Shown: in pieces, positions 11,318 to 24,063 of the stretch
How the letters are laid out: each line of letters begins with the position of its first letter
How positions within the stretch are numbered: position 1 is the first letter of the stretch
Virus record (IMG/VR): IMGVR_UViG_3300030329_003825
Span: 1 to 29,639 of that record
DNA: 29,639 bases
From: a virus
Reading direction: 5' to 3' (one strand)
Translations under genes and position numbers: made by a program
The notes under the pieces: generated by a model
Told to the model about the DNA's origin: nothing
Database searches by the model: none
The model's input: only the letters and a program-made list of their open reading frames with translations

Positions 11318-12413
11318 TAATTTTATCTAAAGCATTAAATGCGCTATTATTGTTTTGGCGCTGTTCTTCTAATGTAACACCAGCATAATGATTATCTACA
11401 ACCTCAATAGATTTATCACCAATACTATGCCCTGCTTTACTTGCATCTTTTGTTTCTTTTCTAACTAATTGTGCTTTCATTCTACGCAGATCGTGACATG
11501 TAAAATTAATACCTACTATAATGCTAATTTCTTTTATAATAGCATTTAAATCTTTATAGTTCATATCCAATGGTCTATCTGCGCCAGTTCTAAATCTTTT
11601 TTTCAATATAGATATTGCACTAGGATGTACCGAAACAGTTTCTCTTGTTTTACGGCGTTTTTGCAATAATAGCATTGTATTGTTAATAAAATCTATATGC
11701 TCCCAATGCAATTCTTTATATGGTTTACGACTATTATGTCCAATTAATTCATTTGCTCTAACACCAGTAATTGCAAATAAATAGGCAATGTCTTTTTGTT
11801 CTGTAGATAAATATGAATTATGAAATAAATGCTTAATCTCTTCATTTGTCCATACTTTATATTCTAACGGTTTTAGTTCATGTTTTTTATAGCGATCGCT
11901 TTTGCGCATAACGCGTTTAGTTACATATTCTTCTTCATAGGCCCAATTAAATATGTGTAGCAAATCACGCATATAGCTGTCTATGCCTCTTCTTGATCTA
12001 TGATGCTTATATTCCATAACATGTTTATATATAGTCCATCCAGTCACATTGACACCAAGTACTTTTTCTGATGTTTTGCGTAATGTTGATGCAATAGTAT
12101 CTCCTGGAAATACTTTTTTACAACTGTTCATTACAACTTTATATTTAGCAATAGTATCTATATTAGTTAACGTGCTTAAAACATTATTAGTAAATGCAAT
12201 AAATATTTCATCTATAGTCTTTTGTGGCTCTTCATTATATAATAATGCACGCCAGTTCATGCTGTTTTTTGCATATAGCTCTACGGTTTGCCAGTGGCCC
12301 AATGCAATAACAGCTTGCTCTTTTGTTTGAAAGTACTTTTGCTTACGTTGATTATCTCGTGGATCAACATAACTAACTCTGTAACTTTTATTTGGTTTAT
12401 CTAAACTTGCCAT
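11307..12413 (-). CDS. int: Tyrosine-family integrase (368 aa)
   Basis: The start is the ATG at 12413, which has AGAGG six bases ahead; an ATG further upstream adds 11 residues without a clear site. The N-terminus is a short arm-type domain (YRVSYVDPRDNQRKQKYF), then a core-binding domain. The catalytic domain has Arg in TGVRANEL (about 219), Lys in LLLQKRRK, HDLRR (about 306), His in GHSIGDK and Tyr in NHYAG (about 343). All catalytic residues are present, so it should be active. It integrates and with a partner excises the phage. No excisionase was recognised. Confidence 0.9.
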   Translation of the reverse strand: MASLDKPNKSYRVSYVDPRDNQRKQKYFQTKEQAVIALGHWQTVELYAKNSMNWRALLYNEEPQKTIDEIFIAFTNNVLSTLTNIDTIAKYKVVMNSCKKVFPGDTIASTLRKTSEKVLGVNVTGWTIYKHVMEYKHHRSRRGIDSYMRDLLHIFNWAYEEEYVTKRVMRKSDRYKKHELKPLEYKVWTNEEIKHLFHNSYLSTEQKDIAYLFAITGVRANELIGHNSRKPYKELHWEHIDFINNTMLLLQKRRKTRETVSVHPSAISILKKRFRTGADRPLDMNYKDLNAIIKEISIIVGINFTCHDLRRMKAQLVRKETKDASKAGHSIGDKSIEVVDNHYAGVTLEEQRQNNNSAFNALDKIIKQ

Positions 12414-12513
12414 TTTAACCTCTCTGTTGTGCATTAATATACACATTTGTGAACAAAAAACAAAATAATACTTGCAAAGTAAAAAGTGTTCACATTAAGT
12501 TTCATCTACGTTT
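12414..12513 (+). promoter_or_regulatory. Divergent control region with two inverted TGTGAACA operator-like sites
   Basis: The 100 bases between the integrase (leftward) and the HTH gene (rightward) carry TGTGAACA at 12448-12455 and its reverse complement at 12487-12494. A leftward promoter can be proposed with TGAACA, 16 bases and TATTAT, which would place one operator over its -35 box. A rightward promoter (TTGCAA, 17 bases, TTAAGT) is weaker. The arrangement is what a CI/Cro-like regulator would use to switch both directions. The promoter hexamers are my guesses; the repeated motif is plainly visible. Confidence 0.55.
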
Positions 12514-12720
12514 ATGGAACAAACACATACCAAAGTAAAATTTCGCGATTTGTTATCTCAAAATAAAATATCGCAACGCAGACTCAGCGCACTTGTCGGC
12601 ATTAGTCCGGCACTCCTTACTATGATGCTAAAAGGCGAGAGAACATTTCAGTATAGACACCGCGATAACATTGCGAGAATATTTAATGTTCAAGAAGATA
12701 GCATCATTTGGAATGAATAA
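12514..12720 (+). CDS. Cro/CI-type helix-turn-helix regulator (68 aa)
   Basis: A single XRE-type HTH domain fills this small protein: ISQRRLSALVGISPALLTMMLKG is the recognisable helix-turn-helix (about residues 20-42), and the helical tail ends in DSIIWNE. There is no peptidase or dimerisation domain. It lies just right of the operator-like repeats and opens the rightward operon, so a Cro-like or short repressor role is natural. It is the only clear XRE regulator in the window. Whether it keeps lysogeny or promotes lysis is not decidable here. Confidence 0.8.
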   Translation: MEQTHTKVKFRDLLSQNKISQRRLSALVGISPALLTMMLKGERTFQYRHRDNIARIFNVQEDSIIWNE

Positions 12721-12722
12721 TT

Positions 12723-12811
12723 TAGGGCGGTATCCTTCTTGTTGGCATGGTGACTTGATACATCATCATGTTTTGATTCTAACCTCTCAGTTGAATCCTC
12801 TTACCGCCCTA
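12723..12811 (+). ncRNA. Candidate structured RNA, three-way junction closed by a 10-bp stem
   Basis: Perfect inverted repeat TAGGGCGGTA (12723-12732) / TACCGCCCTA (12802-12811). Inside are two further helices. The first is CATGGTGA/TCATCATG (12746-12753 with 12763-12770, loop of 9, one G-U pair, extendable by two more G-U). The second is GATTC-AAC/GTT-GAATC (12775-12783 with 12790-12797, one bulged T, loop of 6). The G-U pairs work only on the plus strand. The element begins two bases after the regulator's stop codon, and its last base is the A of the next gene's ATG. Function unknown. Confidence 0.5.
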
Positions 12812-13059
12812 TGATTTTTCGTATCGCAATATCCGACGATCAACAGCAAATAGAATTTGCACAAAAAATACGTGCTTTATTTGCAAACAATAAAATTAAA
12901 AACACAACCTATGAGCCACAAAATGCAGATATTGGTGTAGTTGCCCATCAGGTAATTAATAAAAAATTATTAGGTCAAATTGTAGGCTTAATACAAAGAA
13001 GTGGTTATGAAATCACATTAATCGATAATAAAAATAAGGAAGCTAAATATGTCAAATAG
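12811..13059 (+). CDS. Hypothetical protein (82 aa)
   Basis: A small alpha/beta protein (IFRIAISDD, ADIGVVAHQVINKKLLGQIVGL, YEITLIDN). The ATG has no ribosome binding site and its A is the last base of the 10-bp stem described just upstream. Translation may depend on that structure or on coupling with the HTH gene. The gene overlaps the SSB gene by 11 bases and carries the SSB ribosome binding site (AAGGAAG). No family recognised. Confidence 0.6.
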   Translation: MIFRIAISDDQQQIEFAQKIRALFANNKIKNTTYEPQNADIGVVAHQVINKKLLGQIVGLIQRSGYEITLIDNKNKEAKYVK

Positions 13060-13582
13060 TTTAAGTGGTATTAATATACCTACTAGCGAATCAAGTGGTT
13101 TGTTTATGAAAAAACTGGAGCAAGGTGAAAATACAATACGCATTCTTACATCACCAATTGATGGATACGTATGGTGGCCTGAAGATGATAACAAGCCGCA
13201 ACGTGTTAAAGAACCAAAGGATATACCAACTGGCGTAAAAGATGCAAAGTATTTTTGGTTTCTTACCATTGGTATTAATGGCGAGGTTAAGTTTTTGGAA
13301 ATAAAACAAAGAACCATACAAAATCAAATTGCGGCTTTGTCTAATAACACACAATGGGGCGAAGTAAAAGATTATGATATAACTATTACAAGATCAGGTC
13401 AGGATTTAGAAACACAATATACTGTTGTGCCTAATCCCAAATCTGATGTAAGTACAGATGTGGCAGGTGAGTGGAATAAGATGAAAGCGCGTTATAAGCC
13501 TGAAAATCTCTTCACAAATGGATCTCCGCTAGAGGCCGGTGAAGAAGTTGCGCAAGATAATGATGAGGAACTGCCATTTTGA
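13049..13582 (+). CDS. ssb: Single-stranded DNA-binding protein (177 aa)
   Basis: The N-terminal half has the look of phage OB-fold SSBs (KLEQGENTIRILTSPIDGYVWW, then FWFLTIGINGEVKFLEIKQ with clustered aromatics). The C-terminus is the hallmark acidic tip ending in DNDEELPF, comparable to the DDDIPF tail that recruits replication partners. A good AAGGAAG site precedes the ATG. It is followed at once by a resolvase-like nuclease and lies upstream of the primase-helicase, as expected for a replication protein. Start is well supported. Confidence 0.8.
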   Translation: MSNSLSGINIPTSESSGLFMKKLEQGENTIRILTSPIDGYVWWPEDDNKPQRVKEPKDIPTGVKDAKYFWFLTIGINGEVKFLEIKQRTIQNQIAALSNNTQWGEVKDYDITITRSGQDLETQYTVVPNPKSDVSTDVAGEWNKMKARYKPENLFTNGSPLEAGEEVAQDNDEELPF

Positions 13583-13881
13583 ACGTAGCTAAAAAAGGCT
13601 ACCGAGGCGAAGTCGAGGTCAAAGAATTACTCTCTGACCTCGGCTTTGATGCCGAACGTAGTTGGGGTAGTGATGGCCGTGCTTTTGGCCTTGCTAGTGA
13701 TATAGATATAAAAGCAACACGAGATGATTTAGAATTACACGTGCAGGTGAAACGTCGCAAAAAAATTGCAAGTTATTTAGAATTTAAAAATGCAAACTTA
13801 GTCGCTGTTAGGCAAGATCGCGGTAAGTGGGTATTTATAATGAGCGAGGAAATGTTCAAAGATGTGCTTCGCGTGGAATAA
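13579..13881 (+). CDS. Hjc-like PD-(D/E)XK nuclease, putative Holliday junction resolvase (100 aa)
   Basis: Starts with TTG in a TTGA overlap with the SSB stop. The order GYRGEVEVKELLSDLGF, then SDIDIK, then VQVKRR is the PD-(D/E)XK pattern: helix Glu, Asp (about 40) and Q-x-K (about 56-58; Gln in place of Glu). The conserved G-x-x-x-E helix, the RS-x-GSDGRA segment and the short length match archaeal/phage Hjc-type resolvases. It would cut recombination or replication junctions before packaging. Sequence pattern is clear; the exact substrate is inferred. Confidence 0.7.
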   Translation: MNVAKKGYRGEVEVKELLSDLGFDAERSWGSDGRAFGLASDIDIKATRDDLELHVQVKRRKKIASYLEFKNANLVAVRQDRGKWVFIMSEEMFKDVLRVE

Positions 13882-13890
13882 ACATTTAAA

Positions 13891-13957
13891 ATCCGAGGAC
13901 AAAAGACTGAATACGAAAGAAGAGTCTGACAAAAAGTTGGCGAACTCGTCCTCGGAT
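13891..13957 (+). ncRNA. Candidate structured element A, 67 nt with a perfect 10-bp stem
   Basis: ATCCGAGGAC (13891-13900) pairs perfectly with GTCCTCGGAT (13948-13957) around a 47-base interior. The interior contains AGACT/AGTCT and AGTT-GGCG-AACT as possible helices. It starts ten bases after the preceding stop codon, in the only large gap of this operon. A second element with identical dimensions follows five bases later. There is no U-run, so it is not a standard terminator. RNA or DNA function is open; plus-strand RNA is assumed from operon direction. Confidence 0.45.
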
Positions 13958-13962
13958 AATAC

Positions 13963-14029
13963 TCCGGCATCAAAAGGCTTGATAATTCACACCCAGGTTG
14001 GCGTAGGCGGTAAGCTGCCTGATGCCGGA
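13963..14029 (+). ncRNA. Candidate structured element B, 67 nt with a perfect 10-bp stem
   Basis: TCCGGCATCA (13963-13972) pairs perfectly with TGATGCCGGA (14020-14029), again around 47 bases. An inner helix GCTT/AAGC and a small CCA/TGG hairpin can be drawn. Like element A it contains GTTGGCG. The 3' arm ends nine bases before the next ATG and includes the GGA of the probable ribosome binding site. It could therefore hide the start site of the zinc-ribbon gene at 14038. Same size as its neighbour, different stem sequence. Confidence 0.45.
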
Positions 14030-14037
14030 AAGTAATT

Positions 14038-14184
14038 ATGAATTGTTGGCATTGTTCAAATGAACTTATATGGGGCGGTGACCACGACAATGAGGAAGAA
14101 ACTGGTATGATTACAAATTTAAGTTGTCCGGACGACAGTTGCCAAGCTACCGTCCTGGTTTTTTTAGATTACAAAGAAAAATAA
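14038..14184 (+). CDS. Zinc-ribbon miniprotein (48 aa)
   Basis: A short acidic protein with CWHC near the N-terminus and CPDDSC about 25 residues later, a typical four-cysteine zinc-ribbon arrangement. A WGGDH motif and an acidic linker (NEEETG) lie between them. Similar small proteins with WGGDH are common in phages, but their job is not known to me. The gene follows the two hairpin elements, ends in TAA and abuts the next ATG. Translation probably uses GGAAAG, part of which is inside the upstream stem. Confidence 0.65.
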   Translation: MNCWHCSNELIWGGDHDNEEETGMITNLSCPDDSCQATVLVFLDYKEK

Positions 14185-14358
14185 ATGACAGCTAAACAAA
14201 AAATGATAGCAATTGTTGGCAAGGCCATTGTAGATGAATTAGAACAATACGCAGATAAACAACCTAACCTTGCTAGTGAAACAGCACGATTTGAAATAAT
14301 GACTAATATTATGGATCGAGTTATCAAAGTTATAGATGATCCGGAGTTTAAATCTTGA
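14185..14358 (+). CDS. Hypothetical helical protein (57 aa)
   Basis: The ATG starts directly after the previous stop and the gene ends in a TTGA overlap with the next. The product is predicted mostly helical (AIVGKAIVDELEQYADK, then FEIMTNIMDRVIKVIDD), without cysteines or membrane spans. A ribosome site (AAAGAAA) is weak, suggesting coupling to the upstream gene. No family recognised; it is supported by tight fit into the operon. Confidence 0.55.
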   Translation: MTAKQKMIAIVGKAIVDELEQYADKQPNLASETARFEIMTNIMDRVIKVIDDPEFKS

Positions 14359-14780
14359 ACAATAAAGAATTTATAGAATTTAGAGACAAATTTGTTGCGG
14401 AAGCGTTAGATCTTAGTGATGCTAAATCTATAGAGTACACTATATCTAATGTAGACAAACATTATAATTTTAAACATGTTGCAGATAGATTAGGCATAAC
14501 ACCACAACAAGCTATGATGGTTTATGTATTAAAACATATAGATGCTATATGTAATGACGCAAAAACTGGTAAGCAGGCCAGTGATGAAACTGTGCGGAGC
14601 AGATGTCAGGATATAATGAATTATGCCATACTATACGCCTCTTTAGAACATACCAAAGGTAAAACAAATGATAATAACATTAAACGAAATGGAACAAGTA
14701 TTAGCAAAAAAAGTCGGGATACAACGCCACAAACAGAACCTAGCAAATGGAACGAACTCAGACGCAGTAGCAAAACCTGA
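14355..14780 (+). CDS. Hypothetical protein (141 aa)
   Basis: Starts with TTG overlapping the stop of the previous gene. It contains an N-terminal helical domain (about residues 1-90) with YTISNVDKHYNFKHVADRL and GITPQQAMMVYVLKHIDAI, which may hold a helix-turn-helix-like turn. A low-complexity basic tail (SKKSRDTTPQTEPSKWNELRRSSKT) overlaps the following nuclease gene by 113 bases in another frame. The tail may be a by-product of that overlap. Similar helical domains occur in phage early genes, but I cannot name a function. Confidence 0.55.
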   Translation: MNNKEFIEFRDKFVAEALDLSDAKSIEYTISNVDKHYNFKHVADRLGITPQQAMMVYVLKHIDAICNDAKTGKQASDETVRSRCQDIMNYAILYASLEHTKGKTNDNNIKRNGTSISKKSRDTTPQTEPSKWNELRRSSKT

Positions 14781-15144
14781 AAATGATATTAATGGATTTG
14801 CTGGCGAACTTGCTGTTGCTCGCGTAATCAATTCCTATCCTGATTTATCTATTGGGCCACACAGACGTGGTTACGATTTAAAGATGCGTGGTAAGCGCGG
14901 CGAAGATATTCGCATTGATGTAAAGACGACCAAACATAATCCTGGTTATTTAATTGCTAAAAAATGGCGCGAAGTGTCTGACTGTGATATGTATGTTTTG
15001 GTAAGTGGCAGAATGCCGCGTTATCAAATTATGGGATGGGTGTGGTCAATTGAATTAATCAATCCAAGTAATTTATCTGATATGGGATATGGTGAACATT
15101 ATCATATGGAACATGCACAACTCAGGGTATGGAAAATTGCATAG
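14668..15144 (+). CDS. PD-(D/E)XK nuclease-like protein (158 aa)
   Basis: The ATG has AAAGG seven bases ahead. Residues about 40-110 contain GFAGELAVARVI, GYDLKM and IRIDVKTTKH: a helix Glu, an Asp, and D-x-K of the PD-(D/E)XK fold. It then runs through YVLVSGRMPRYQIMGWVW, typical of the strands closing such folds. A short N-terminal helix (MEQVLAKKVGIQRHKQNLANG) precedes it. It resembles phage-encoded endonuclease-like proteins of unknown substrate. It is the second of four such folds in this operon. Confidence 0.65.
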   Translation: MIITLNEMEQVLAKKVGIQRHKQNLANGTNSDAVAKPENDINGFAGELAVARVINSYPDLSIGPHRRGYDLKMRGKRGEDIRIDVKTTKHNPGYLIAKKWREVSDCDMYVLVSGRMPRYQIMGWVWSIELINPSNLSDMGYGEHYHMEHAQLRVWKIA

Positions 15145-15523
15145 TCAAAATGTGGGTACTATCGGAGAATTAGCCGTGCGCCAGGAATTATTAAGACAAG
15201 GATATAAGGTATACTTGCCGGAAGTAGATATTGAGCATGTAGACTTATTAGTAGAAGTAGAAAATGGTGCTTTTAAACGTGTGCAGGTGAAAACAATTAC
15301 AAAGCTGACCACTGCTACTGCGATGCAGGTTAGATGTGTAAAATACGTTAATAGCGGACGTGTAGATGTCATAGCAGTGTATTTTGTACCGAAAAAGATA
15401 TGCGCATTTGTGCCATATAATAATGAGAAAATGATTAGTCTTGCTATTACGACTGCAAAGAATAATCAAAGATCAAAAAGACAATGGTTTTATCAATATG
15501 AGCGATTCCCGGAGTTTAGTTAA
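15113..15523 (+). CDS. PD-(D/E)XK endonuclease-like protein (136 aa)
   Basis: The ATG at 15113 (with GGAA five bases ahead) overlaps the previous gene by 32 bases; a GTG at 15152 is an alternative. The order GTIGELAVRQELLRQGYKVYLP, then DIEHVDLLVEVE, then RVQVKT gives Glu, Asp and Q-x-K of the nuclease fold, as in intron-type PDDEXK endonucleases and resolvase-like proteins. The C-terminal part includes VDVIAVYFVPKKICAFVPY. Probably a DNA-cutting or DNA-binding enzyme of recombination; the substrate is unknown. Confidence 0.65.
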   Translation: MHNSGYGKLHSQNVGTIGELAVRQELLRQGYKVYLPEVDIEHVDLLVEVENGAFKRVQVKTITKLTTATAMQVRCVKYVNSGRVDVIAVYFVPKKICAFVPYNNEKMISLAITTAKNNQRSKRQWFYQYERFPEFS

Positions 15524-16301
15524 TTTAAAAGTAATATCACTTGGTCTTGGTGTACAGTCAACAGCAATGTACATGATGAGTTCTTTAGGATATATAGAAA
15601 GAGCAGATCATGCAGTGTTTGCTGACCCTGGTGCAGAATTACCTATGACTTATAAAATATTAGAATATTTAAAAGACTGGGGCAAATACAATAATGGCAT
15701 TCCTATACATGTTAATGCTGAAAAAAACTTATACAAAGATTTATTAAATCAAACAAATAGTACAGGTCAGCGTTTTGCAAGCATACCTGCATTTAGTGAA
15801 AATGGTGGCATGATACGTAGGCAATGTACAAAAGAATATAAAATTGATCCGGTTATAAAAGAGATAAGAAAACTATATGGATTAAAACCAAGAAAGCGCA
15901 TGCCTATGACTCAAGTGTGGCTTGGTATTAGTATGGATGAGATTGAACGAATGAAAGTATCACAGCTACCACGCATTGAATATTATTATCCATTAATAGA
16001 AGAACGCATGTCTCGCAGTGAGTGTATATCATTTTTTAAAGACCGCAATTTTCCTGTGCCGCCAAAATCATCCTGTGTTTTTTGTCCGTACCACAGCAAT
16101 AAGAATTGGAAAGAATTAAAAGAAAAGTTGCCTGATGAATTTGCAAAAGCTGTTAAAATAGATGAAGCAATTCGTGATAGCAGTAAAAAAGGTGTTAAAG
16201 AACCAATTTATCTGCATCGCTCCTGCACACCACTTGAGCGTGTAGATTTTGGTGACCAGTTAGAAATGTTTATGTGTGAAGAAGGTTTTTGCGGATTATG
16301 A
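15498..16301 (+). CDS. PAPS-reductase-like (PP-loop) protein (267 aa)
   Basis: VISLGLGVQSTAMYMMSSLG near the N-terminus is a PP-loop (S-x-G-x-[DQ]-S) as in PAPS reductase/adenine-nucleotide alpha-hydrolases. VFADPGAELP follows, and later RRQCTKEYKI and SCVFCPYHSNKNW, both typical of the phage members. C-terminal cysteines (RSC and CEEGFC) may bind a metal or Fe-S cluster. The ATG at 15498 is inside the previous gene; further upstream starts lack support. These proteins activate a substrate with ATP; whether sulfate reduction, nucleic-acid sulfur modification or another reaction is meant here is unknown. Confidence 0.75.
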   Translation: MSDSRSLVNLKVISLGLGVQSTAMYMMSSLGYIERADHAVFADPGAELPMTYKILEYLKDWGKYNNGIPIHVNAEKNLYKDLLNQTNSTGQRFASIPAFSENGGMIRRQCTKEYKIDPVIKEIRKLYGLKPRKRMPMTQVWLGISMDEIERMKVSQLPRIEYYYPLIEERMSRSECISFFKDRNFPVPPKSSCVFCPYHSNKNWKELKEKLPDEFAKAVKIDEAIRDSSKKGVKEPIYLHRSCTPLERVDFGDQLEMFMCEEGFCGL

Positions 16302-16507
16302 ACCACTACGCAGGAAGCATATCATTTGACAATGACCAAGGTGAGTGGGAAGACTGGATCGTGACGGCAATGGATTATAAAACATTGGTTGAAAAAATGA
16401 TTAGAGCCAAATCTATGCGCAAGAATGCAGAAGTGCATTTTGCAGTGCTAAAAATGGGTAAAAAAGAATTTGACATAACAGAAAAGGTGAGAAGTGAATG
16501 CCAATAA
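16298..16507 (+). CDS. Hypothetical protein (69 aa)
   Basis: Chosen start is the ATGA overlap at 16298; an upstream TTG is possible but unneeded. The product is a small acidic-to-basic protein: NHYAGSISFDNDQGEWEDW, then a helix DYKTLVEKMIRAKSMRK and a strand VHFAVLKMGKKEF. No known motif. Its end overlaps the starts of two ORFs in other frames (16494 and 16498). Confidence 0.55.
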   Translation: MNHYAGSISFDNDQGEWEDWIVTAMDYKTLVEKMIRAKSMRKNAEVHFAVLKMGKKEFDITEKVRSECQ

Positions 16508-16769
16508 CAAAACATCACAAGAAAAAATACCCGAACTCAGAATGGGTGCGGAGAAGAAACATACGTCGGGCAGCACAACGCCTAGCTTCAAAACTAGATA
16601 CATCCGACATTGCGGTGGATACGCTGGATTCCACGAAAAACTTGGAAGAAGTGCATTCTTCATCAGTGAAACCGAAACAAAAAGGCTTGTGGCAAAGAAG
16701 CATGGGCGCAATAAAGCGTGCTTTTGCGGGTCAGAGAGGAAGCTAAAGAAATGTTGCCTAATTGGGTAA
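16494..16769 (+). CDS. SEC-C zinc-binding motif protein (91 aa)
   Basis: GTG start overlapping the previous gene by 14 bases. The C-terminal 22 residues, GRNKACFCGSERKLKKCC, form a clear SEC-C motif (C-x-C-x8-C-C), a zinc-binding end known from SecA and many other proteins. The preceding segment (TRYIRHCGGYAGFHEKLGRSAFF) is unusual. An ORF in the +1 frame covers nearly the whole gene (16498-16746). The SEC-C motif makes this frame the better supported of the two, although both may be used. Function unknown; zinc-mediated protein or nucleic-acid contact is plausible. Confidence 0.6.
   Translation: MNANNKTSQEKIPELRMGAEKKHTSGSTTPSFKTRYIRHCGGYAGFHEKLGRSAFFISETETKRLVAKKHGRNKACFCGSERKLKKCCLIG
16498..16746 (+). 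CDS. Overlapping-frame basic protein (82 aa), possibly real
   Basis: This ATG frame lies almost entirely inside the SEC-C gene. It has its own start with AAGGTGAG 8-10 bases ahead. It opens with a plausible basic leader (MPITKHHKKKYPNSEWVRRR) that looks like the start of small phage DNA-associated proteins, while the second half is Ser/Lys-rich and unremarkable. Uninterrupted openness of two frames over about 250 bases in AT-rich DNA is unlikely by chance but does not prove translation. Either frame could be the conserved one. Confidence 0.35.
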   Translation: MPITKHHKKKYPNSEWVRRRNIRRAAQRLASKLDTSDIAVDTLDSTKNLEEVHSSSVKPKQKGLWQRSMGAIKRAFAGQRGS

Positions 16770-17017
16770 TCCGAGATAAAACAATTAAAGAACTATATGA
16801 GGGTAGGGTAAATTCTATCAAAGAAAAACGAGGTAGAAAGCTGCGAGTAGATAAGTTAATTAAAGCATGCCCAGTATGCAAAAGAACTTATGAGTCAGTT
16901 AATCCTAATAAGAATTGCGGAAAATCTATTATGTATTATAAGGTAGGTCACATACCTACATATGGTAAGAAAAAAGTAACTTGTAAAGAATGTGAGGGTA
17001 ATAATGGGAAAATTTGA
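16751..17017 (+). CDS. Zinc-ribbon protein (88 aa)
   Basis: The ATG at 16751 has AGAGGA about ten bases ahead; an upstream GTG frame is less likely. After a helical basic N-terminus (KTIKELYEGRVNSIKEKRGRK) the protein has CPVC (about residues 40-43), another Cys in NCGK and a final CKEC pair: a treble-clef-like zinc-binding set. GHIPTYGKKKVTC resembles nuclease-adjacent HNH/zinc-ribbon segments, but no catalytic HNH residues are present. It overlaps the next gene by 14 bases. Function unknown, nucleic-acid binding likely. Confidence 0.6.
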   Translation: MLPNWVIRDKTIKELYEGRVNSIKEKRGRKLRVDKLIKACPVCKRTYESVNPNKNCGKSIMYYKVGHIPTYGKKKVTCKECEGNNGKI

Positions 17018-17657
17018 TTTGCACGGCGCTAAATATATTAATAAAGATGGCAAGAGAGTGCCAAGCGTTACAACAATTATTAGTCAACAATTAGGCTGGA
17101 ATAAGCAGGCTTTAATTGGCTGGACTAAACGTATGATGCTTGGTGGCCAGGATAGTGATAAAGTATTAGATGAAGCTTCACAAATTGGCACATTATTGCA
17201 TCTATTAATTGAAGCGCATCAACAAGGGTTTGATGTAGATACAAAGGACTTCAGTTATAACCAGGAAAAAGCTGCGATGAAAGCTTATGCAGGTTATTTA
17301 GAGTGGTATCAAAAGAAAAACTTTAAGTCACTTAAAAATGAAGTGGTGCTAGTTAATGAAGAACTTCAAGTAGGTGGCACAATAGATAGTATTGGTAAAA
17401 TGGGTGACGATCTTGTTGTAGTAGATTGGAAAACAAGTAAATATTTATATGCAGAAAACAAACTACAGCTTGCTGCTTACACGTATATGTTTGAACAAGC
17501 GCAACCAAAGGCTAATGTAGCGTATGGGCTTGTGATGCGTTTTGGTAAAGATGACGGCAAATTTCATCAGCACGTTGTCAAGAGAGAGAAATTAGAAACC
17601 GGGATTGAAATATTTAAAGCGTTAATAAAGATCTCGCAACTTAAATCACAGCTTTGA
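17004..17657 (+). CDS. RecB/Cas4-like PD-(D/E)XK exonuclease (217 aa)
   Basis: ATG at 17004 with GAGGG ahead; a GTG 12 bases upstream is an alternative. Motifs in order: PSVTTII near the N-terminus, then G-x-LLHLLIEAH (His), NEVVLV, VGGTIDSIG (Asp), VVVDWKTSK (D-x-K) and LQLAAYTYMF (Q-x-x-x-Y). This is the Cas4/RecB-nuclease signature without a cysteine Fe-S cluster. It is followed by the primase-helicase at a TTGA overlap. Such phage enzymes act in recombination or DNA end processing. Confidence 0.8.
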   Translation: MGKFDLHGAKYINKDGKRVPSVTTIISQQLGWNKQALIGWTKRMMLGGQDSDKVLDEASQIGTLLHLLIEAHQQGFDVDTKDFSYNQEKAAMKAYAGYLEWYQKKNFKSLKNEVVLVNEELQVGGTIDSIGKMGDDLVVVDWKTSKYLYAENKLQLAAYTYMFEQAQPKANVAYGLVMRFGKDDGKFHQHVVKREKLETGIEIFKALIKISQLKSQL

Positions 17658-19513
17658 TCCGGCCGTCAGAGATTTTCTCTGAGATAAACTCAGTTGGAAA
17701 TCGTGCGCGTTGTCCAAGGTGCGGTGATGGCAAAAAAAATTATCCGGTACAAATTGAGCCGGATCACGCTTTTTGTCACCGCTGCAATCATACCTGGTGG
17801 TTTGAAGATAATAAAAAATATGATCTTGTTGCTAAACCGCCAAAAGTAAAAGAACCATTATATATTAAAAGTAATGGTGCAGTAAAAGAGTCCGATTACA
17901 CTACTCACCGCGCTAATTTTCTTGAGCATAGTGACTTTGTCATAAAAAAATTATCATTACCCTGGAATAAACATTGCCTAAAAGAACGATATGGTATTGG
18001 CGTACGAAACAATCAAGATGAGATGCAATTGGTATTTCGCATCAACAATCATCATATTAAAAGACATAAAGGCCAGCAATTTGGTAATGCAGAGTGTAAA
18101 ATATACCCGGATATCGCAAATATAGACCCGAAAGGCACGCTACTTATTTGTGAGGGTGAAAAAGATGCCGTTAGTGCAGGATGTTATGGATTCCCGGCCA
18201 TTTCATTCACTTCAGGTGCTAACGGCATCCCTAAAGATCTAACCATCCTGGATGAATATAAAAATATAGTCATATGTTACGACAATGATGAAAGTGGTAA
18301 AAAAGGTGCAAAAAAACTTGCAAATGCATTGTTTAATATTGACAGACAAATAAAGATATTAACTTTGCCTGACGAAATGGACATTACAGATTATTTTGTT
18401 GCAGGCTTTACAGCAGACGATTTACTACAATTAATTGATGCCAGTAAAATATTTGGTGAAAGTCCGGTAGATCTTGGTGGTGACCCGGTATATGGAGTAT
18501 TGGATTTTATTGACACGTTTAAAGACGAAGTCAAATATATTTGTGACGAAATATTATTAGAAGATGGCCGCACTAGTGTTGCCGGCGGTACAAACGTAGG
18601 CAAATCACTATTTGCACTACAATTTGCTTTGTGCGTGTCAATGGGAGTGCCATTTATGCATTTTCAAGTACCATTGCCAAGACGTGTATTATTAGTGCAA
18701 TTTGAAATGATGGATGCTATGATGACGCAGCGTATCACCTCTATGATGAACGCATTGCTAGATAAATACCCTGACCGCAAATATATTATGGCGCAAAACC
18801 TGGATATTATTAGTGCGGATCAAAAACAATTGTTTGAAGACTCATATAAAAGTATTGAGGGTAACCTAAAAGCTGCAAAAAAACCCTATGACGTATTAAT
18901 TATAGACAATTTGTACACTAGTACTGCCGTAGACACGGTGAAAAATGACCAGCTGCGCAATTTATTAGAGACAATACAAACGCTAAAAGAAAAATATAAA
19001 CTTGCCGTTATGGTTGTTGCACATCATAAAAAGATGGCCGAAAAACAAATACCGCTAGACTCATCAATGGTTTTTGGCGGTTCATTTTACTCATTTTGGC
19101 TGGATAACTTGATACAACTTGCTAGTACTTTTAATGAAAAGCTAAAAGTGATGAAGATTACAAAGACCAGGACTAATAGCGAATTTCACAATGTGCCGCT
19201 AGGTATTAAATTAATGGATGGCGAAAATCGCTTACATTATGAGTACTTACAACCACTTCCAAAAGGTGAAATATTTTGGTATAAAGAACGTGAGGAAACT
19301 AGCGAGGATCGTGTTTTAGATAATCTTAATACAATGGGTGACAACTTTACGTATGACGATATGGCAAAAAGTTTGAAGTTAACGCTTAATATTACTAGTA
19401 GCGCAAGTGTTAGTGCCTGGCTTAAAAAATTATTAAAACAGCAAAGAATTATTAAGATTGAACGCGGAATTTATGCGAAAAATAAGACAGATATTGAAAA
19501 TATGTTAGATTAA
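17654..19513 (+). CDS. Primase-helicase, TOPRIM plus RecA-like ATPase (619 aa)
   Basis: TTG start in a TTGA overlap. Zinc finger C20-x2-C23 and C41-x2-C44 (CPRCG, CHRC), as in phage primases. TOPRIM domain: LLICEGEKDAVSAG (about 163-176) and ICYDNDESGKKG (about 207-218). Then a RepA/RecA-like ATPase with Walker A GGTNVGKS (about 310-318) and Walker B VLIIDNL (about 413), plus MVVAHHKK. The end (about 555-619) looks like a winged helix (YDDMAKSL, SAWLKKLLKQQRIIKIERGIY). It would unwind DNA and lay down primers. The palindromic repeats right after it suggest a nearby origin. Confidence 0.85.
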   Translation: MIRPSEIFSEINSVGNRARCPRCGDGKKNYPVQIEPDHAFCHRCNHTWWFEDNKKYDLVAKPPKVKEPLYIKSNGAVKESDYTTHRANFLEHSDFVIKKLSLPWNKHCLKERYGIGVRNNQDEMQLVFRINNHHIKRHKGQQFGNAECKIYPDIANIDPKGTLLICEGEKDAVSAGCYGFPAISFTSGANGIPKDLTILDEYKNIVICYDNDESGKKGAKKLANALFNIDRQIKILTLPDEMDITDYFVAGFTADDLLQLIDASKIFGESPVDLGGDPVYGVLDFIDTFKDEVKYICDEILLEDGRTSVAGGTNVGKSLFALQFALCVSMGVPFMHFQVPLPRRVLLVQFEMMDAMMTQRITSMMNALLDKYPDRKYIMAQNLDIISADQKQLFEDSYKSIEGNLKAAKKPYDVLIIDNLYTSTAVDTVKNDQLRNLLETIQTLKEKYKLAVMVVAHHKKMAEKQIPLDSSMVFGGSFYSFWLDNLIQLASTFNEKLKVMKITKTRTNSEFHNVPLGIKLMDGENRLHYEYLQPLPKGEIFWYKEREETSEDRVLDNLNTMGDNFTYDDMAKSLKLTLNITSSASVSAWLKKLLKQQRIIKIERGIYAKNKTDIENMLD

Positions 19514-19600
19514 CCGACACGCAGGAAAACTAAAGAAACTAAAGTAGTGTAAACACTTACTTTACTTACTTTACTTACTTTAGGTTTATTTAGTGTCGGT
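19513..19600 (+). repeat. Iteron-like palindromic region, possible replication origin
   Basis: An 88-base region just after the primase stop. ACCGACAC (19513-19520) pairs with GTGTCGGT (19593-19600). Between them AAACTAAAG is repeated twice in tandem (19527-19544) and CTTACTTTA three times in tandem (19556-19582). The second set is an imperfect inverse of the first, centred on AGTGTAAACACT. AT-rich, directly repeated 9-mers near a primase-helicase fit a theta-type origin or regulator array. A role as attenuator or operator is equally open. Confidence 0.5.
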
Positions 19601-19607
19601 GTGAACA
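19548..19607 (+). promoter_or_regulatory. Two TGTRAACA operator-like sites before the gene at 19613
   Basis: TGTAAACA (19548-19555, centre of the palindrome) and TGTGAACA (19600-19607, abutting the outer inverted repeat) match the motif found at the integrase/regulator control region and in the 23423-23738 region. Both lie upstream of the small gene at 19613. Their presence suggests that the phage repressor also acts here. Binding is inferred from motif identity only. Confidence 0.45.
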
Positions 19608-19612
19608 CTTTT

Positions 19613-19825
19613 ATGCAAAAAATGGATTTTATATACAAATGTCATTTATCGGATCAAGTTGATCAAACTTGTATTTTTGCAAAGCCGGTAAAAGATACAA
19701 TTTATTGTAAGGCAATTGGAAATTGGTGGAAAAATTGGGATGTCAAATTGTTAGACAAATGTTTTAAAAAAATGAAAGCCAGGGATAGATTATTGTGGCG
19801 CAATAGATTATTAAAAAAACCCTGA
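19613..19825 (+). CDS. Hypothetical protein (70 aa)
   Basis: A small, basic protein with three cysteines (KCHLS, TCIFAK, YCKAI), two tryptophan pairs (NWWKNW) and a Lys/Arg-rich end (RDRLLWRNRLLKKP). A GTG start at 19601 would run over the operator-like site; the ATG at 19613 is preferred, though without a clear ribosome binding site. It is the last rightward gene before the bidirectional terminator. Function unknown. Confidence 0.5.
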   Translation: MQKMDFIYKCHLSDQVDQTCIFAKPVKDTIYCKAIGNWWKNWDVKLLDKCFKKMKARDRLLWRNRLLKKP

Positions 19826-19881
19826 CCATAATAATATTAAAATGGGTGTGCTGCACAAACTAATACAATGTTATTGCAAAC

Positions 19882-19915
19882 AAAAAAAAAGCCGCATTGC
19901 TGCGGCTCTTCTTTT
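19882..19915 (+). terminator. Bidirectional intrinsic terminator
   Basis: GCCGCA (19891-19896), loop TTGC, TGCGGC (19901-19906): a six-base GC-rich hairpin flanked by nine A on the left and TCTTCTTTT on the right. Read leftward it has a perfect run of U after the stem; read rightward the U-tract is interrupted. It sits between the last rightward gene and the last leftward gene, and serves both convergent operons. Confidence 0.85.
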
Positions 19916-19924
19916 ATGGGGATG

Positions 19925-20218
19925 CTAATCATCATAATTATCTAAATTTGTAGCATTGTAGTAATTTTCATTTTTTTGATCATCCCATACGTTTTCGCGA
20001 GTGTGTGTTTGTTTTATTCTACCTTTTGCAGAACTTATATTTGCACTTGCATCAAACATATCTGTAATTGCGCCTAATCTAATATATTGTAAATTAAACT
20101 CAGCTTCGTATAAATCAGTTTTAAAGTCATCAACTGCTTTGATTAACTTCTTTTGTTGCCTGGCCAGGTATTGTATGTCCTGATCTTTTTGTGTTTTTGT
20201 TTTCTTTTTTATAGCCAT
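19925..20218 (-). CDS. Hypothetical helical protein (97 aa), last of the leftward operon
   Basis: Ribosome site AAAGGAAA precedes the ATG. The product opens with a basic stretch (MAIKKKTKTQKDQD), continues in long helices (IQYLARQQKKLIKAVDDFKTDLYEAEF) and ends acidic (NATNLDNYDD). It is coiled-coil-like without catalytic motifs. As the last leftward gene it is followed by the terminator at 19882-19915. No family is recognised. Confidence 0.6.
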   Translation of the reverse strand: MAIKKKTKTQKDQDIQYLARQQKKLIKAVDDFKTDLYEAEFNLQYIRLGAITDMFDASANISSAKGRIKQTHTRENVWDDQKNENYYNATNLDNYDD

Positions 20219-20236
20219 TGCTATTTCCTTTCTTGT

Positions 20237-20383
20237 TTATTTTATAACTTTGCCACACTTAGAACACATATTATCTTTAAGTTCTGAATAATCAAAATAG
20301 CTATCACATTCTGAGCAAATACTATCTTTTATCATATCTAAAGCCTCAATGTCTGCTAGTGCTGATTGTTTTTTAATATCCAA
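20237..20383 (-). CDS. Zinc-ribbon miniprotein (48 aa)
   Basis: The start I prefer is a TTG at 20383, with AGAGGCAG eight bases ahead; a longer form would begin at an ATG at 20431 and overlap the upstream gene by 59 bases. A short helix (ALADIEALDMIKDS) precedes CSECDSYFDYSELKDNMCSKCG. The four cysteines (C-x2-C, C-x2-C, 13 residues apart) are a typical zinc ribbon. Probably DNA- or protein-binding. Start choice is uncertain. Confidence 0.55.
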   Translation of the reverse strand: MDIKKQSALADIEALDMIKDSICSECDSYFDYSELKDNMCSKCGKVIK

Positions 20384-20582
20384 AATCTGCCTCTGCTTTC
20401 TCTTTGTCTTGTTCCCATATCCATAATTCATTGTCGTGGAGAGAGTATGGATATTCTAATTCAATTTCCCCACTTTCAATATCATCTATTTCATCATCAA
20501 TTAAGTTTATTCTTATTGCACCTATTGAACCAGGATCAGGTAAGTTTTTTGGTTCATTGTTTAATAATTCATCTACTTTCAT
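20373..20582 (-). CDS. Hypothetical acidic protein (69 aa)
   Basis: Strong ribosome site (AGGGGAG) ahead of the ATG, which overlaps the stop of the upstream gene (ATGA). The product is very acidic (IDDEIDDIESGEIELEYP and WIWEQDKEKAEADFGY), with a short segment of strands. Acidic small phage proteins often mimic DNA or bind DNA-binding enzymes, but nothing in the sequence proves this. Function unknown. Confidence 0.6.
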   Translation of the reverse strand: MKVDELLNNEPKNLPDPGSIGAIRINLIDDEIDDIESGEIELEYPYSLHDNELWIWEQDKEKAEADFGY

Positions 20583-20746
20583 TTTATCTCCCCTATTTTA
20601 AAGTAATCACATAACACATCTGTTATTATGTCTTGCAGATCAAGTTCTGTAGTATCATCTGTATCTGTACAATCCTTTATTATTTCTTTTTCAACCATTT
20701 TATCAACACATCTAATTGATAAATCTATTATAGTTTGTTTGTCCAT
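20579..20746 (-). CDS. Hypothetical protein (55 aa)
   Basis: ATG preceded by GGAAGGAAATTAA; the gene ends in an ATGA overlap with the next leftward gene. The product starts with a helix (QTIIDLSIRCVDKMVEKEI), has a Thr/Asp-rich middle (DCTDTDDTTELD) and a second helix (QDIITDVLCDYFKIG). Short, acidic, no motif. Presence of a ribosome site and exact operon spacing support a gene. Confidence 0.55.
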   Translation of the reverse strand: MDKQTIIDLSIRCVDKMVEKEIIKDCTDTDDTTELDLQDIITDVLCDYFKIGEIK

Positions 20747-20881
20747 TTAATTTCCTTCCTTGTTTTGTAATTCAGTAAGTTTATTATTGAAAACTTCTTG
20801 CATTAATTCCCAATCATACACTTTAGTTCCATCGTCTTGCAGATGGTAATGCAATGGTATTTCTATTGTCTCTTTTTTCAT
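20747..20881 (-). CDS. Hypothetical protein (44 aa)
   Basis: Preceded by GGAAGGAAAGTAAA. The product (KKETIEIPLHYHLQDD then TKVYDWELMQEVFNNKLTELQN) is a short strand plus helix with an acid/base mixed surface. Its last codons carry the ribosome site of the next gene and the stop directly abuts its ATG. No family recognised. The 117 bases upstream of it hold no convincing gene, only a 21-codon hydrophobic frame lacking a ribosome site. Confidence 0.5.
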   Translation of the reverse strand: MKKETIEIPLHYHLQDDGTKVYDWELMQEVFNNKLTELQNKEGN

Positions 20882-20998
20882 TTTACTTTCCTTCCTTATT
20901 TGTTAATTATTCAGCGCATAGATATAAAATCCAGCATATAAATAATATTAAAATGGAATAAAAAAAATCTACCCATCCTAAATTATTTACATAGGTAA

Positions 20999-21259
20999 TT
21001 AAAAGCATTTATATACCTGGCTAAAGTTTTCTATTTTTTCTTTTGCTAATGAAAATAAAATTGCATCTAGATCATTGCGCAATAAAGATAAATGATGCGG
21101 CATTGTATGAAAAAATTCCTGGAGCTGCTTAATATTATTATAAGCTTCTTTTAATCCCCAATGCTTTAAATAAAATGCCAAAACTAGCCGCGCTTCTGTA
21201 TGATTATTAAAACGCGTAAGCTCTTTTAATTCTTGTAATTGTTTTTTGTTTAGTTTCAT
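20999..21259 (-). CDS. Hypothetical helical protein (86 aa)
   Basis: GGAG lies five bases ahead of the ATG, which overlaps the stop of the upstream gene by one base. The sequence is all helix: KKQLQELKELTRFNNHTEARLVLA, then LKEAYNNIKQLQEFFHTM and LRNDLDAILFSLAKEKIENF. It may be a small helical-bundle regulator. No family recognised. Confidence 0.55.
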   Translation of the reverse strand: MKLNKKQLQELKELTRFNNHTEARLVLAFYLKHWGLKEAYNNIKQLQEFFHTMPHHLSLLRNDLDAILFSLAKEKIENFSQVYKCF

Positions 21260-21648
21260 TATAACTCCATAATTACATTTATTAACATATGTATTGCTTT
21301 ATGCCTATTTTTATGATCTGCTTTATCGTCTATATCACAAGACTGCAACAAATTAAAATAATAATCTTTTGCGCCGTCAGTTTCAGGTATAAATTTGCTA
21401 ATTAACAAATAATGATCTGATAGGCTAGATGGTAAAATAAACCAAGTTATATCCTGGCGCGGATCGGATACATTACCCCAAAGCATAGAACCTTCATTAA
21501 TATGAGATTCTATAATTTCTATGTGTTGATCAGATAATGGATTGTCATTGTCAATTTTATAACCCCAGCGCCAACTATTACCCTGATAAATAATATTATT
21601 AATTTTATGTAATTTGTATTTTTTATTATTAATGATTATAGTTTTCAT
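21259..21648 (-). CDS. Hypothetical protein (129 aa)
   Basis: Ribosome site GGAAGGC ahead of the ATG. The product has a basic beta-rich start (TIIINNKKYKLHKI), a Trp-rich segment (GNSWRWGYKI), DPRQDITWFILPSSLSDHYLLIS in the middle and a helical end with a His/Lys stretch (KADHKNRHKAIHM). The gene overlaps the upstream one by 20 bases. No known motif; role unknown. Confidence 0.55.
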   Translation of the reverse strand: MKTIIINNKKYKLHKINNIIYQGNSWRWGYKIDNDNPLSDQHIEIIESHINEGSMLWGNVSDPRQDITWFILPSSLSDHYLLISKFIPETDGAKDYYFNLLQSCDIDDKADHKNRHKAIHMLINVIMEL

Positions 21649-22024
21649 TTGTCTTGCCTTCCTTAATTTGATTAAATAAATCTAAATTGCTTTTTATAAT
21701 GCTTAGCAATTCGCAATAGTGCATAGTTTCAAATATTAAATAATTTTGATTTAAATCTAGGGTGTAAGTATTAAATTGCTCTTCATCAATATTATTATGT
21801 TTGCTCGTTGGCATAAATACCTTAAATATTATTTGATTGTTTTTAAATTGCTTTTCGTTGTTTTCGTTGCTCATTATGTAACTTGGTGCGAGATCATTTG
21901 GCCACGTGCTATTATAAAATCCAAGCTCTTCAAATATTAAATTAGTGCGCTTTTTTTGATATTCTTTAGAATGCGGCCAACGTGTTTTGGTCCATTCAAA
22001 ATATTCTTTAGTATGATATTTCAT
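21629..22024 (-). CDS. Hypothetical protein (131 aa)
   Basis: AGAGGAAC precedes the ATG, which overlaps the stop of the upstream gene (TAATG). The sequence has a basic N-terminus with HTKEYFEWTKTRWPHSKEYQKK, a Trp/Asp segment (YNSTWPNDLAPSY) and a helical end (CELLSIIKSNLDLFNQI). The Asn/Lys richness follows the AT-rich DNA. No recognised motif; may be a phage early protein. Confidence 0.55.
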   Translation of the reverse strand: MKYHTKEYFEWTKTRWPHSKEYQKKRTNLIFEELGFYNSTWPNDLAPSYIMSNENNEKQFKNNQIIFKVFMPTSKHNNIDEEQFNTYTLDLNQNYLIFETMHYCELLSIIKSNLDLFNQIKEGKTNENYNH

Positions 22025-22146
22025 TATTTTTGTTCCTCTTGTTGTTTCATTATTAAAGTATTTTTGTATTGGTTGCGCTCTTGTTTGACGTTGTATAACC
22101 TAACATAAAGCGCAATTATTATAATGATTAAAATAATACTATCCAT
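22024..22146 (-). CDS. Small single-span membrane protein (40 aa)
   Basis: A tiny ORF starts after GGTTAAAAA and ends at a TAATG overlap. Residues 3-16 (SIILIIIIIALYV) form one membrane span near the N-terminus, followed by a basic cytoplasmic-type tail (KQERNQYKNT). Such minimal membrane peptides occur in phage early operons and may affect host membrane proteins. That role is inference. The shared leader with neighbours supports translation. Confidence 0.5.
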   Translation of the reverse strand: MDSIILIIIIIALYVRLYNVKQERNQYKNTLIMKQQEEQK

Positions 22147-22149
22147 TTT

Positions 22150-22329
22150 TTAACCTCTTTTTTTTATTGCTTCAATACGTGCATTTTTTAACATTTGATT
22201 AGCTTTATCATAACCCCAAAAACTAGCTAATTCATAATAAATACGTTCTACTTCGCTTTTATCTTTGGCGCTCCAATTATTTAAACCCTTATTAAATAAA
22301 TCAATATATTTGTCTATCAATGTTTTCAT
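22150..22329 (-). CDS. Hypothetical helical protein (59 aa)
   Basis: Leader GGAAGGTTAAAAA ahead of the ATG. The product has helical segments (LIDKYIDLFNKGLNNWSAK, KSEVERIYYELASFWGYDK, ANQMLKNARIEAIKKRG) and a basic end. It is soluble, with no cysteines. It may form a small helical bundle. Function unknown. Confidence 0.5.
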   Translation of the reverse strand: MKTLIDKYIDLFNKGLNNWSAKDKSEVERIYYELASFWGYDKANQMLKNARIEAIKKRG

Positions 22330-22445
22330 TTTTTAACCTTCCTAAATATCCAGGCCGGCAAAAATGTTACCGGCCTTAATGCTGCTAATACAATTATTTT
22401 TGCTGTTAGATTAATTATATTTATGATCATTTTAATATAGTTCAT
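22326..22445 (-). CDS. Small hydrophobic membrane protein (39 aa)
   Basis: Leader GGAAGGCTAAAAA; the stop overlaps the next ATG (ATGA). Nearly the whole chain is hydrophobic (MIINIINLTAKIIVLAAL, then VTFLPAWIF) with a basic end (RKVKK), consistent with one or two short membrane spans. The C-terminal codons contain a strong inverted repeat, AGGCCGG / CCGGCCT (22352-22358 and 22370-22376, loop of 11), which also lies just ahead of the next ribosome site. The DNA hairpin is GC-rich in an AT-rich block and may have its own function. Confidence 0.45.
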   Translation of the reverse strand: MNYIKMIINIINLTAKIIVLAALRPVTFLPAWIFRKVKK

Positions 22446-22465
22446 TTTTTAGCCTTCCTTTTTTG

Positions 22466-22597
22466 TTAATTTAAAAAACTTATATCTTGATTATGTTTTT
22501 GCATTGTTTTAATTGCTTGCTCTTTAGTCATATTAAAACGCTTAATCAAATAGTGATATAATTCTAGATTGTTTATTTGTTTGTTTTTATCTTTCAT
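22466..22597 (-). CDS. Hypothetical protein (43 aa)
   Basis: Leader GAGGTTAAAAA. Helical, basic short protein (KNKQINNLELYHYLIKRFNM, then KEQAIKTMQKHNQD) with heptad-like spacing, ending ISFLN. No motif. About 20 bases separate it from the next leader, the largest gap in this part of the operon. Support comes from leader identity and coding fit. Confidence 0.45.
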   Translation of the reverse strand: MKDKNKQINNLELYHYLIKRFNMTKEQAIKTMQKHNQDISFLN

Positions 22598-22600
22598 TTT

Positions 22601-22726
22601 TTAACCTCTTTTTTTTAAGTTTTTAAAATATGTACCATTTAAAACCGCTCTAACTACCGGCGGCGCGTTTGCCATTACACGTTTTTTTGCGTCGTAAATT
22701 TCTGTTGGTTTTAGTTTTGTTTTCAT
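22601..22726 (-). CDS. Hypothetical basic protein (41 aa)
   Basis: Leader GGAAGGCTAAAAA. Basic throughout (MKTKLKPTEIYDAKKRVM), a Pro/Val middle (ANAPPVVRAVLNG) and a Lys/Arg-rich end (FKNLKKRG). Codons are noticeably more GC-rich than in the genes to its left, and more like the large gene upstream. Function unknown; nucleic-acid contact is conceivable. Confidence 0.45.
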   Translation of the reverse strand: MKTKLKPTEIYDAKKRVMANAPPVVRAVLNGTYFKNLKKRG

Positions 22727-22729
22727 TTT

Positions 22730-23422
22730 TTAGCCTTCCTTGTTTAATTGATTATTTACACGTTTTTTCATTGTGCCGTGTGCTGGAAAATATACAATTG
22801 ATTTCCGAGTACTTACGGCGCACAATTTACACGTTGCGCAATCTATTTTTACATTGTCCATTGTTGCCGGACACTGAACAAAAGTTTTACCGCCTTTTTT
22901 AAACGTGCCGGACGTGTCACTTGTTGCCACTGATACAACAGGCGCTATGTTTTTATTTGCTAATTTTACCGCGTGTTCCGGATCATTGCCGGATAAATTC
23001 ACAACAAACCCGGCCTTGTTCATTGCCTTAATAATAATGCCGTTGCCGTTTTTTGTTGGGTCATAATGAGTATATGTAAAACCGCGCTTGCCTTTATTTG
23101 CTGCCGTTAATTGTTCGCAGCCGTCGCCGTCTAAGTGTTCGCCGTTGCCGGGTAGATCCCCGGCCTGATTATGCCGCCAAAGCTGCCCAGTTTTTAAGTT
23201 ACGTATCTTATCCAGGAATTGCGCAAAGCTGCCGCCGCGCTCGCCGCTTGTTACTTTCATCCAATGTAATTTCAGTGGCCCGGCTTCCGCATAGCAACCG
23301 CCTTCATTGGCATTGTTAAACGGGCAATCATTCGGACACGTTACCGCGCTTGTTGTGCTTACCGGAATTGGGCCGACTTTTTTATTGCTGCTTTTTTCTG
23401 TTAAATGAAAATTGTATTTCAT
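22730..23422 (-). CDS. Cysteine-rich phage protein (230 aa), possible Fe-S/metal enzyme
   Basis: First gene of the leftward operon, with a strong AGGGG site. Near the N-terminus it has TCPNDCPFN and GGCYAEAGP, a compact group of three cysteines typical of metal-binding phage proteins (related in style to Gp37/Gp68- and GP88-type families). A C-terminal cluster follows (KIDCATCKLCAV). Between them are RHNQAGDLPG, FTYTHYDP and VVNLSGNDPEHA, with alternating strands and helices. An iron-sulfur or radical-SAM-like enzyme is conceivable but the canonical C-x3-C-x2-C is not present. Codon use is much more GC-rich than the rest. Confidence 0.6.
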   Translation of the reverse strand: MKYNFHLTEKSSNKKVGPIPVSTTSAVTCPNDCPFNNANEGGCYAEAGPLKLHWMKVTSGERGGSFAQFLDKIRNLKTGQLWRHNQAGDLPGNGEHLDGDGCEQLTAANKGKRGFTYTHYDPTKNGNGIIIKAMNKAGFVVNLSGNDPEHAVKLANKNIAPVVSVATSDTSGTFKKGGKTFVQCPATMDNVKIDCATCKLCAVSTRKSIVYFPAHGTMKKRVNNQLNKEG

Positions 23423-23738
23423 TGTTAACCCCTCAGTTATTTGTTAATTGATACACTTGAATTTATTGAATAGTTTTTGATATTCCTAGTAATTTTGTGA
23501 ACAATATTTATAAAGTAATTCCAGGATAGACTAAAACAAAATAGCAGCCGGACGGCCGCGCGCTCAATTGTTTTATATTGTTATTTGTTGTTGTTTGCCG
23601 TCTATGAGATACGGGTTATAAATCCGCATTTGATCTTATTTATGCGGTACAACAAGGCGCGGCGCTGCGCCTATACGAAGTCACTCCCTAAAAATTTTTT
23701 TTCTTTTTGTGAACACTCTGCACTGTTTACATTCAGGC
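23423..23738 (+). promoter_or_regulatory. Divergent control region of the leftward and late operons
   Basis: These 316 bases hold no convincing gene. They carry TGTGAACA at 23496-23503 and 23708-23715 and TGTTTACA (its inverted variant) at 23724-23731. A GC-rich stretch sits at about 23545-23563, then hairpins CCGCAT/ATGCGG around 23622-23645 and AGGCGC-GGCGCT-GCGCCT around 23654-23672. An AT-rich tract leads to the rightward start. Promoter hexamers are not clear enough to name. Location between two head-to-head operons implies promoters in both directions. Confidence 0.55.
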
Positions 23739-24059: not shown

Positions 24060-24063
24060 GTGT

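Follow-up and report, generated by a model that had tools for sequence, protein, structure and literature searches.

Paired hairpins within a small open reading frame as candidate cis-acting RNA elements in the early transcript of uncultured marine phages

Our comparisons strongly support the view that two hairpins lying side by side in a 29,639-nt stretch of viral DNA (IMG/VR record IMGVR_UViG_3300030329_003825, the whole of which we call the window) have been selected as nucleic acid, and they lead us to a reading whose chances we regard as evenly balanced, namely that both are RNA elements which a group of uncultured marine phages conserves on the sense strand of its early (DNA-replication) transcript and which act in cis at a gene junction. 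Element 2 comprises a closing stem of free sequence (P1), AAA, a 5' strand pairing with the loop of an inner hairpin (P3), the sequence UUGGC and then P3 itself, which abuts the 3' strand of P1, while element 1 is a partner hairpin carrying GGUUGGC. Both are embedded in coding sequence, in the window a 57-codon ORF, and would work in cis on the mRNA at the gene junction, where ribosome entry at the following gene is the step most likely to be gated. The features concerned are:

13579..13881, plus strand, upstream gene for a Hjc/RusA-like Holliday junction resolvase (Pfam Hjc, 8e-5; PHROG 244, 1.2e-5)
13862..14035, plus strand, small ORF of 57 aa (MCFAWNK...TQVGVGGKLPDAGK), which hosts both elements and starts within the 3' end of the resolvase-like gene
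13891..13957, plus strand, element 1 hairpin with stem ATCCGAGGAC (13891-13900) / GTCCTCGGAT (13948-13957)
13935..13946, plus strand, inner hairpin of element 1, AGUU-GGCG-AACU, enclosing the shared GTTGGCG (13936-13942)
13963..14029, plus strand, element 2, a pseudoknotted motif with P1 TCCGGCATCA (13963-13972) / TGATGCCGGA (14020-14029)
13976..13980, plus strand, GGCUU, the 5' half of the pseudoknot, which follows P1 and AAA immediately and pairs with 14012-14016
13998..14002, plus strand, core UUGGC, conserved across clades in any reading frame
14005..14020, plus strand, P3 hairpin AGGC-(GGUAAGCU)-GCCU, whose loop holds the 3' strand of the pseudoknot (14012-14016)
14038..14184, plus strand, small zinc-ribbon-like gene next downstream, whose place is taken by other genes in most relatives

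The geometry that a first-pass annotation had read from the window stands: both stems are perfect and 10 bp long, each with a 47-nt interior, and a spacer of five nt separates them. GTTGGCG does occur in both interiors and is meaningful, GGUUGGC/UUGGC being the core that both element types conserve. Inverted repeats such as these (arms of at least 10 bp with at least 5 G+C, loop of at most 70 nt) are commoner in the window than chance, with four present as opposed to 0-2 in each of 20 first-order Markov sequences, and the stem pair folds with a z-score of -5.2, none of 200 shuffles being as stable. Another perfect inverted repeat, of 11 bp (18164-18174 / 18219-18229, GATGCCGTTAG, loop 44), is found within the primase/helicase gene. 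That the equal dimensions argue for selection is a point we had to give up: since loop 1 measures 44, 47 or 50 nt among relatives, the equal stem-loop sizes are a coincidence. Loop 2 is constant in length within the window's clade. The inner hairpin of element 1, with stems that vary, is predicted for nearly every relative, and its TTGGC is invariant across the window's clade.

Selection on structure as such, which had likewise been proposed, is strongly supported by covariation in 16 close relatives and in a wider motif of 34 copies. The close set (16 distinct sequences) joins loci that were located with the resolvase gene as an anchor to copies of the motif. Both stems are kept throughout this set, with 99.3% of stem cells paired (98.6% in the stem of element 1, where three pairs changed on both sides) as against 28-50% in slid controls. 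Changes on both sides affect five pairs in 13 cells, and 0 of 500 shuffles were as good, bearing in mind that the sequences are related and the shuffles ignore kinship. Some compensations alter the encoded peptide at both positions: CCGAGG/CCTCGG to CCAAGG/CCTTGG in stem 1 exchanges Glu for Lys along with Ser for Leu, GAGGAC/GTCCTC to GAGAAC/GTTCTC exchanges Asp for Asn along with Ser for Phe, and TCCGGC/GCCGGA to TGCGGC/GCCGCA in stem 2 exchanges Pro for Ala along with Gly for Ala. In addition, 19 of 30 conserved codons in the ORF are synonymously invariant, whereas the neighbouring resolvase gene has 14 such codons out of 83 (p = 4.5e-6, Fisher test), including nine consecutive frozen codons over TQVGVGGKL, and synonymous shuffles put the joint chance of both stems at ~0.002 or less per sequence.

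The stems do not fill an uncoded interval, nor is theirs the only sizeable gap of the early operon, as had been assumed. The 57-codon ORF at 13862-14035 spans the interval, its stop ending two bases ahead of the ATG at 14038, and 12721-12810 is also non-coding, with a conserved stem of its own. Because this frame is uninterrupted in each of the 16 distinct close relatives (against 2-12 stops in either of the other sense frames), changes length by multiples of 3, is detached from the resolvase gene and equipped with its own ATG at one locus (L010), and retains the MCF..NK start with synonymous differences at two more distant ones (L195, L249), a small protein is, judging from sequence, probably made from it. 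This protein matched nothing in Pfam or PHROGs, had no tblastn match in cultured phages and found no relative among the bacterial genomes searched. The open frame and the synonymous changes around MCF..NK would suit the idea that the stems merely result from conservation of a small protein and have no RNA role; complementarity, however, is not imposed by protein selection, and with amino acids changing on both sides so as to restore pairing, with synonymous sites frozen and with frames that differ between clades, this idea is to our minds scarcely credible. Translation of the interval into a conserved protein, which the first-pass annotation had set against an RNA role, does describe the close clade, but in distant phages the RNA outlasts the ORF. 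Conservation by the peptide alone is at odds with a core whose frame varies across clades and with the excess of synonymous invariance.

Beyond the close clade, a resolvase profile search yielded 56 additional, more distant loci with the same kind of hairpins at the resolvase 3' end and with copies of element 2 a further 2-3 kb down, between a zinc-ribbon gene and a DNA-cytosine methyltransferase gene. The RNA motif that precedes the latter gene stays intact at two loci where the gene itself is cut short (L252) or missing (L260). From several phage clades, 34 distinct copies were aligned with MAFFT, that is blind to structure (alignment A5). Overall, 96.6% of cells are paired and covariation amounts to 0.686 versus 0.215 in shuffles that ignore kinship, and the worry over relatedness of the sequences is reduced by several clades having unrelated P1 sequences. 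P1 is paired in 100% of cells with 8/8 pairs changed on both sides, P3 in 98.5% (outer pair AU/UA/UG/GU, inner pair CG/UA/UG) and the pseudoknot, which joins the bases just after P1 to the P3 loop, in 88%. Across clades the pseudoknot covaries through up to five pair types, with C-G/U-A/U-G at one pair and G-C/U-A/U-G/A-U/C-G at another. Since the frame in which the UUGGC core is read changes from clade to clade, and since no open frame at all crosses three of the copies, it is the RNA, and not a peptide, that is conserved.

A covariance model of element 2 (R1) matches the window at 13964-14028 with 65.7 bits and finds the motif in 23 of 28 phage records, mostly as one strong copy, two of the 23 having a weak second match (E 0.1-0.2). 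It also detects copies outside its building set, for instance in the record of L023 (3e-7), where element 2 sits just behind the apparent end of a methyltransferase gene, with a hairpin resembling element 1 and containing GGTTGGCG next to it on the downstream side; the two tandem units are thereby swapped in order and placed at a different genome site, and a weak R1 match (17.5 bits) is seen at the resolvase end of this record too. The GGUUGGC partner hairpin accompanies element 2 in four clades; it precedes element 2 in the window's clade, L247 and L249 (descriptor) and in L195 (by inspection), and many relatives have the pseudoknot element alone. In the group L197-L246, the C-terminal tail of the resolvase (gene 3' end) contains a covarying hairpin of 9-12 bp with a strongly conserved 47-51 nt interior (AGAAACCCAT...ATGGCGTGTCTAATGATCGTGATAGTC); this hairpin may have diverged from one of our elements or may belong to a third class of RNA. 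These tail hairpins and the element 1 family were assessed by descriptor and by eye rather than with a calibrated model. The motif is always located in the replication operon, but its junctions and neighbour genes vary. None was found in the cultured phages searched, the motif pattern gave 10 matches in bacterial genomes with 0 backed by the R1 model, and the exact 15-mer GGTTGGCGTAGGCGG returned from viral contigs, among the matches listed and beyond known copies, only unrelated contigs free of the hairpin.

Wobble pairs bear on which strand matters. Read on the sense strand, they are G.U in 36 cases and the reverse (A.C) in one, which indicates that the motif acts as a sense-strand RNA, as part of the mRNA. 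Near-identical phages differ directly behind the element (L002/L003, L014/L018 and L222/L224 are identical or nearly so up to it and then carry different genes), which makes the element junctions hot spots of gene turnover. Such exact swapping, seen in L002/L003 and L014/L018, and the junction resolvase encoded next door might point to a DNA-level site, be it a cruciform, a single-strand replication origin or a gene-cassette recombination site. Phage gene junctions in general see frequent gene turnover, though, and with the wobble asymmetry of 36 to 1 and with copies on the sense strand only, we hold a DNA-level site to be very unlikely. Cruciform and integron-type sites were considered and set aside. 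Equally slim are, in our opinion, the prospects of a trans-acting RNA, a piece of the transcript that would act at a distance from its own genes by binding a protein or RNA of the host or the phage: the loose tie to neighbours and the single strong copy that most records have would be in keeping with it, yet the motif is embedded in coding sequence and adjoins start codons.

This proximity to start codons brings us back to action in cis. An ATG that opens a frame of at least 40 codons lies no more than 30 nt from the element end in 28 of 31 copies, compared to 22% of random positions, albeit any feature placed at a gene junction is to some extent bound to be this close. In clades other than the window's, the codon that follows P3 directly is mostly ATG, GTG or TTG, lies inside P1 and is in frame with the next gene, which is a methyltransferase, a different gene (L203) or yet another (L247-L250). 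It is because of this arrangement, found in several clades, that we propose start-codon gating, in which P1 would sequester the start codon and the pseudoknot would serve as a switch on translation. Translation control as the main role is where we lean, tentatively and with somewhat less than even confidence. In the window's clade gating is less obvious, since P3 is followed there by TGA or CGA and several of the downstream genes possess a separate ribosome site that lies past the stem; as the ORF is kept open there, ribosomes would moreover melt the structure. The specific suggestion that the second stem controls the zinc-ribbon gene at 14038 fails as a general rule, this gene following the elements in only 2 of 16 distinct relatives with at least five other genes in its place, so control of that gene alone was rejected; what is left of it is looser, in that a start codon of one gene or another is almost always to be found within 30 nt of the motif. 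That the genes behind the motif do not form one family is odd for a specific regulator and leaves room for roles independent of the gene, such as antitermination or processing.

A gene-independent role in the early transcript (antitermination, processing, stability) is possible, and we entertain it with clear reserve. The element would then bind RNA polymerase or a factor for processivity or mark the polycistronic mRNA for cutting or protection, and confinement to the sense strand of the replication operon, usually as one strong copy per record and amid varied junctions and neighbours, would agree with this. The tandem stem-loop pair also recalls the put RNA of phage HK022, which suppresses termination by binding the zinc-binding domain of beta'. 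The put RNA is ~70 nt long, consists of two stem-loops in the phage early transcript just downstream of early promoters, where it acts in cis without a dedicated protein, and has a published structure in which two stems form a V and a triple helix is present (PMC9378689). Our elements are two stem-loops in an early phage operon as well, but they measure ~139 nt in all, many relatives have the pseudoknot element alone, and one of the two is a pseudoknot that P1 encloses, with UUGGC as its core, situated at gene junctions. Against a put-like function, the sole good sense-strand terminator-like site in 12200-24400 lies at 19890-19907, near the operon end, so there would be little to read through, and in some clades the motif sits a long way from the start of the operon. 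Whatever weight is not taken up by translation control or a gene-independent role goes to other roles. An intrinsic terminator was dismissed, as a T run is absent after either stem and neither is among the terminator-scan sites, and so was a tRNA or tmRNA, ARAGORN detecting none in the window.

The earlier impression that no known family is involved holds against Rfam 15: at gathering thresholds no family, whether riboswitch, ribozyme or phage RNA, matched the window, and at relaxed ones nothing credible emerged from five relatives (E up to 5) or from 12650-14100 (E up to 10). A size of ~65-75 nt, a pseudoknot and free P1 sequence combined with a fixed core are typical of small ribozymes. Element 2, being compact (~65-75 nt) and pseudoknotted, with a closing stem of free sequence and a conserved unpaired core, resembles twister, pistol, hatchet and others in this respect and might thus be envisaged to cut the polycistronic mRNA at the gene junction, but it differs from them in giving no covariance-model match (no Rfam ribozyme at E up to 5-10), and cleavage would disrupt ORFs that are kept open, so we judge self-cleavage improbable. 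STAXI is a single pseudoknot repeated two or three times in tandem, often with UUCG loops (PMC2864571). It is similar in being a pseudoknot, often tandem, near genes for SSB or DNA handling and with RNA favoured over DNA (PMC2864571), whereas our tandem units are unlike each other and UUCG loops are absent; with one strong R1 copy per matching record and with element 1 not an R1 match, membership of STAXI was rejected. The manA and wcaG motifs are orphan structured RNAs of marine phages in likely 5' regions of genes (PMC2864571), a likeness in kind, their structures, going by the description, being different, and no family in the Rfam set searched matches our elements. That element 2 might represent a new functional RNA class with an activity of its own (a self-cleaving ribozyme or a factor-independent antitermination RNA) at marine-phage gene junctions, paired with element 1 as a second class, is a bolder proposal, which we regard as doubtful.

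A further structure, element 0 (12723-12811), is non-coding and situated between a Cro-like gene and the gene at 12811. It folds into a three-way junction with an inner hairpin, and its closing stem, GGGCGGT/ACCGCCC, ends at the ATG. The relatives examined conserve element 0 and show covarying stem pairs (GGGGCGAC/GTCGCCCC, GGGCAGTGC/GCACTGCCC, GGGTAGCGTC/GACGCTACCC); it had no match in Rfam. Its loop, CCUCUC in the window clade and CUCUCUCU in the L197 clade, is complementary to the purine-rich ribosome sites (GAGAGG and GGAGAGAG) ahead of genes in the same clades and, going by this match, is a possible anti-Shine-Dalgarno mimic.

Taken as a whole, our analysis contributes a structured RNA motif unmatched in Rfam 15, whose covariation support includes the pseudoknot. 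Hidden within coding sequence, it lies outside the reach of searches limited to non-coding gaps. Elements 0, 1 and 2 suggest that several such RNAs reside in one early operon of these uncultured phages, and RNA control of phage replication genes would be directly testable with short synthetic constructs.
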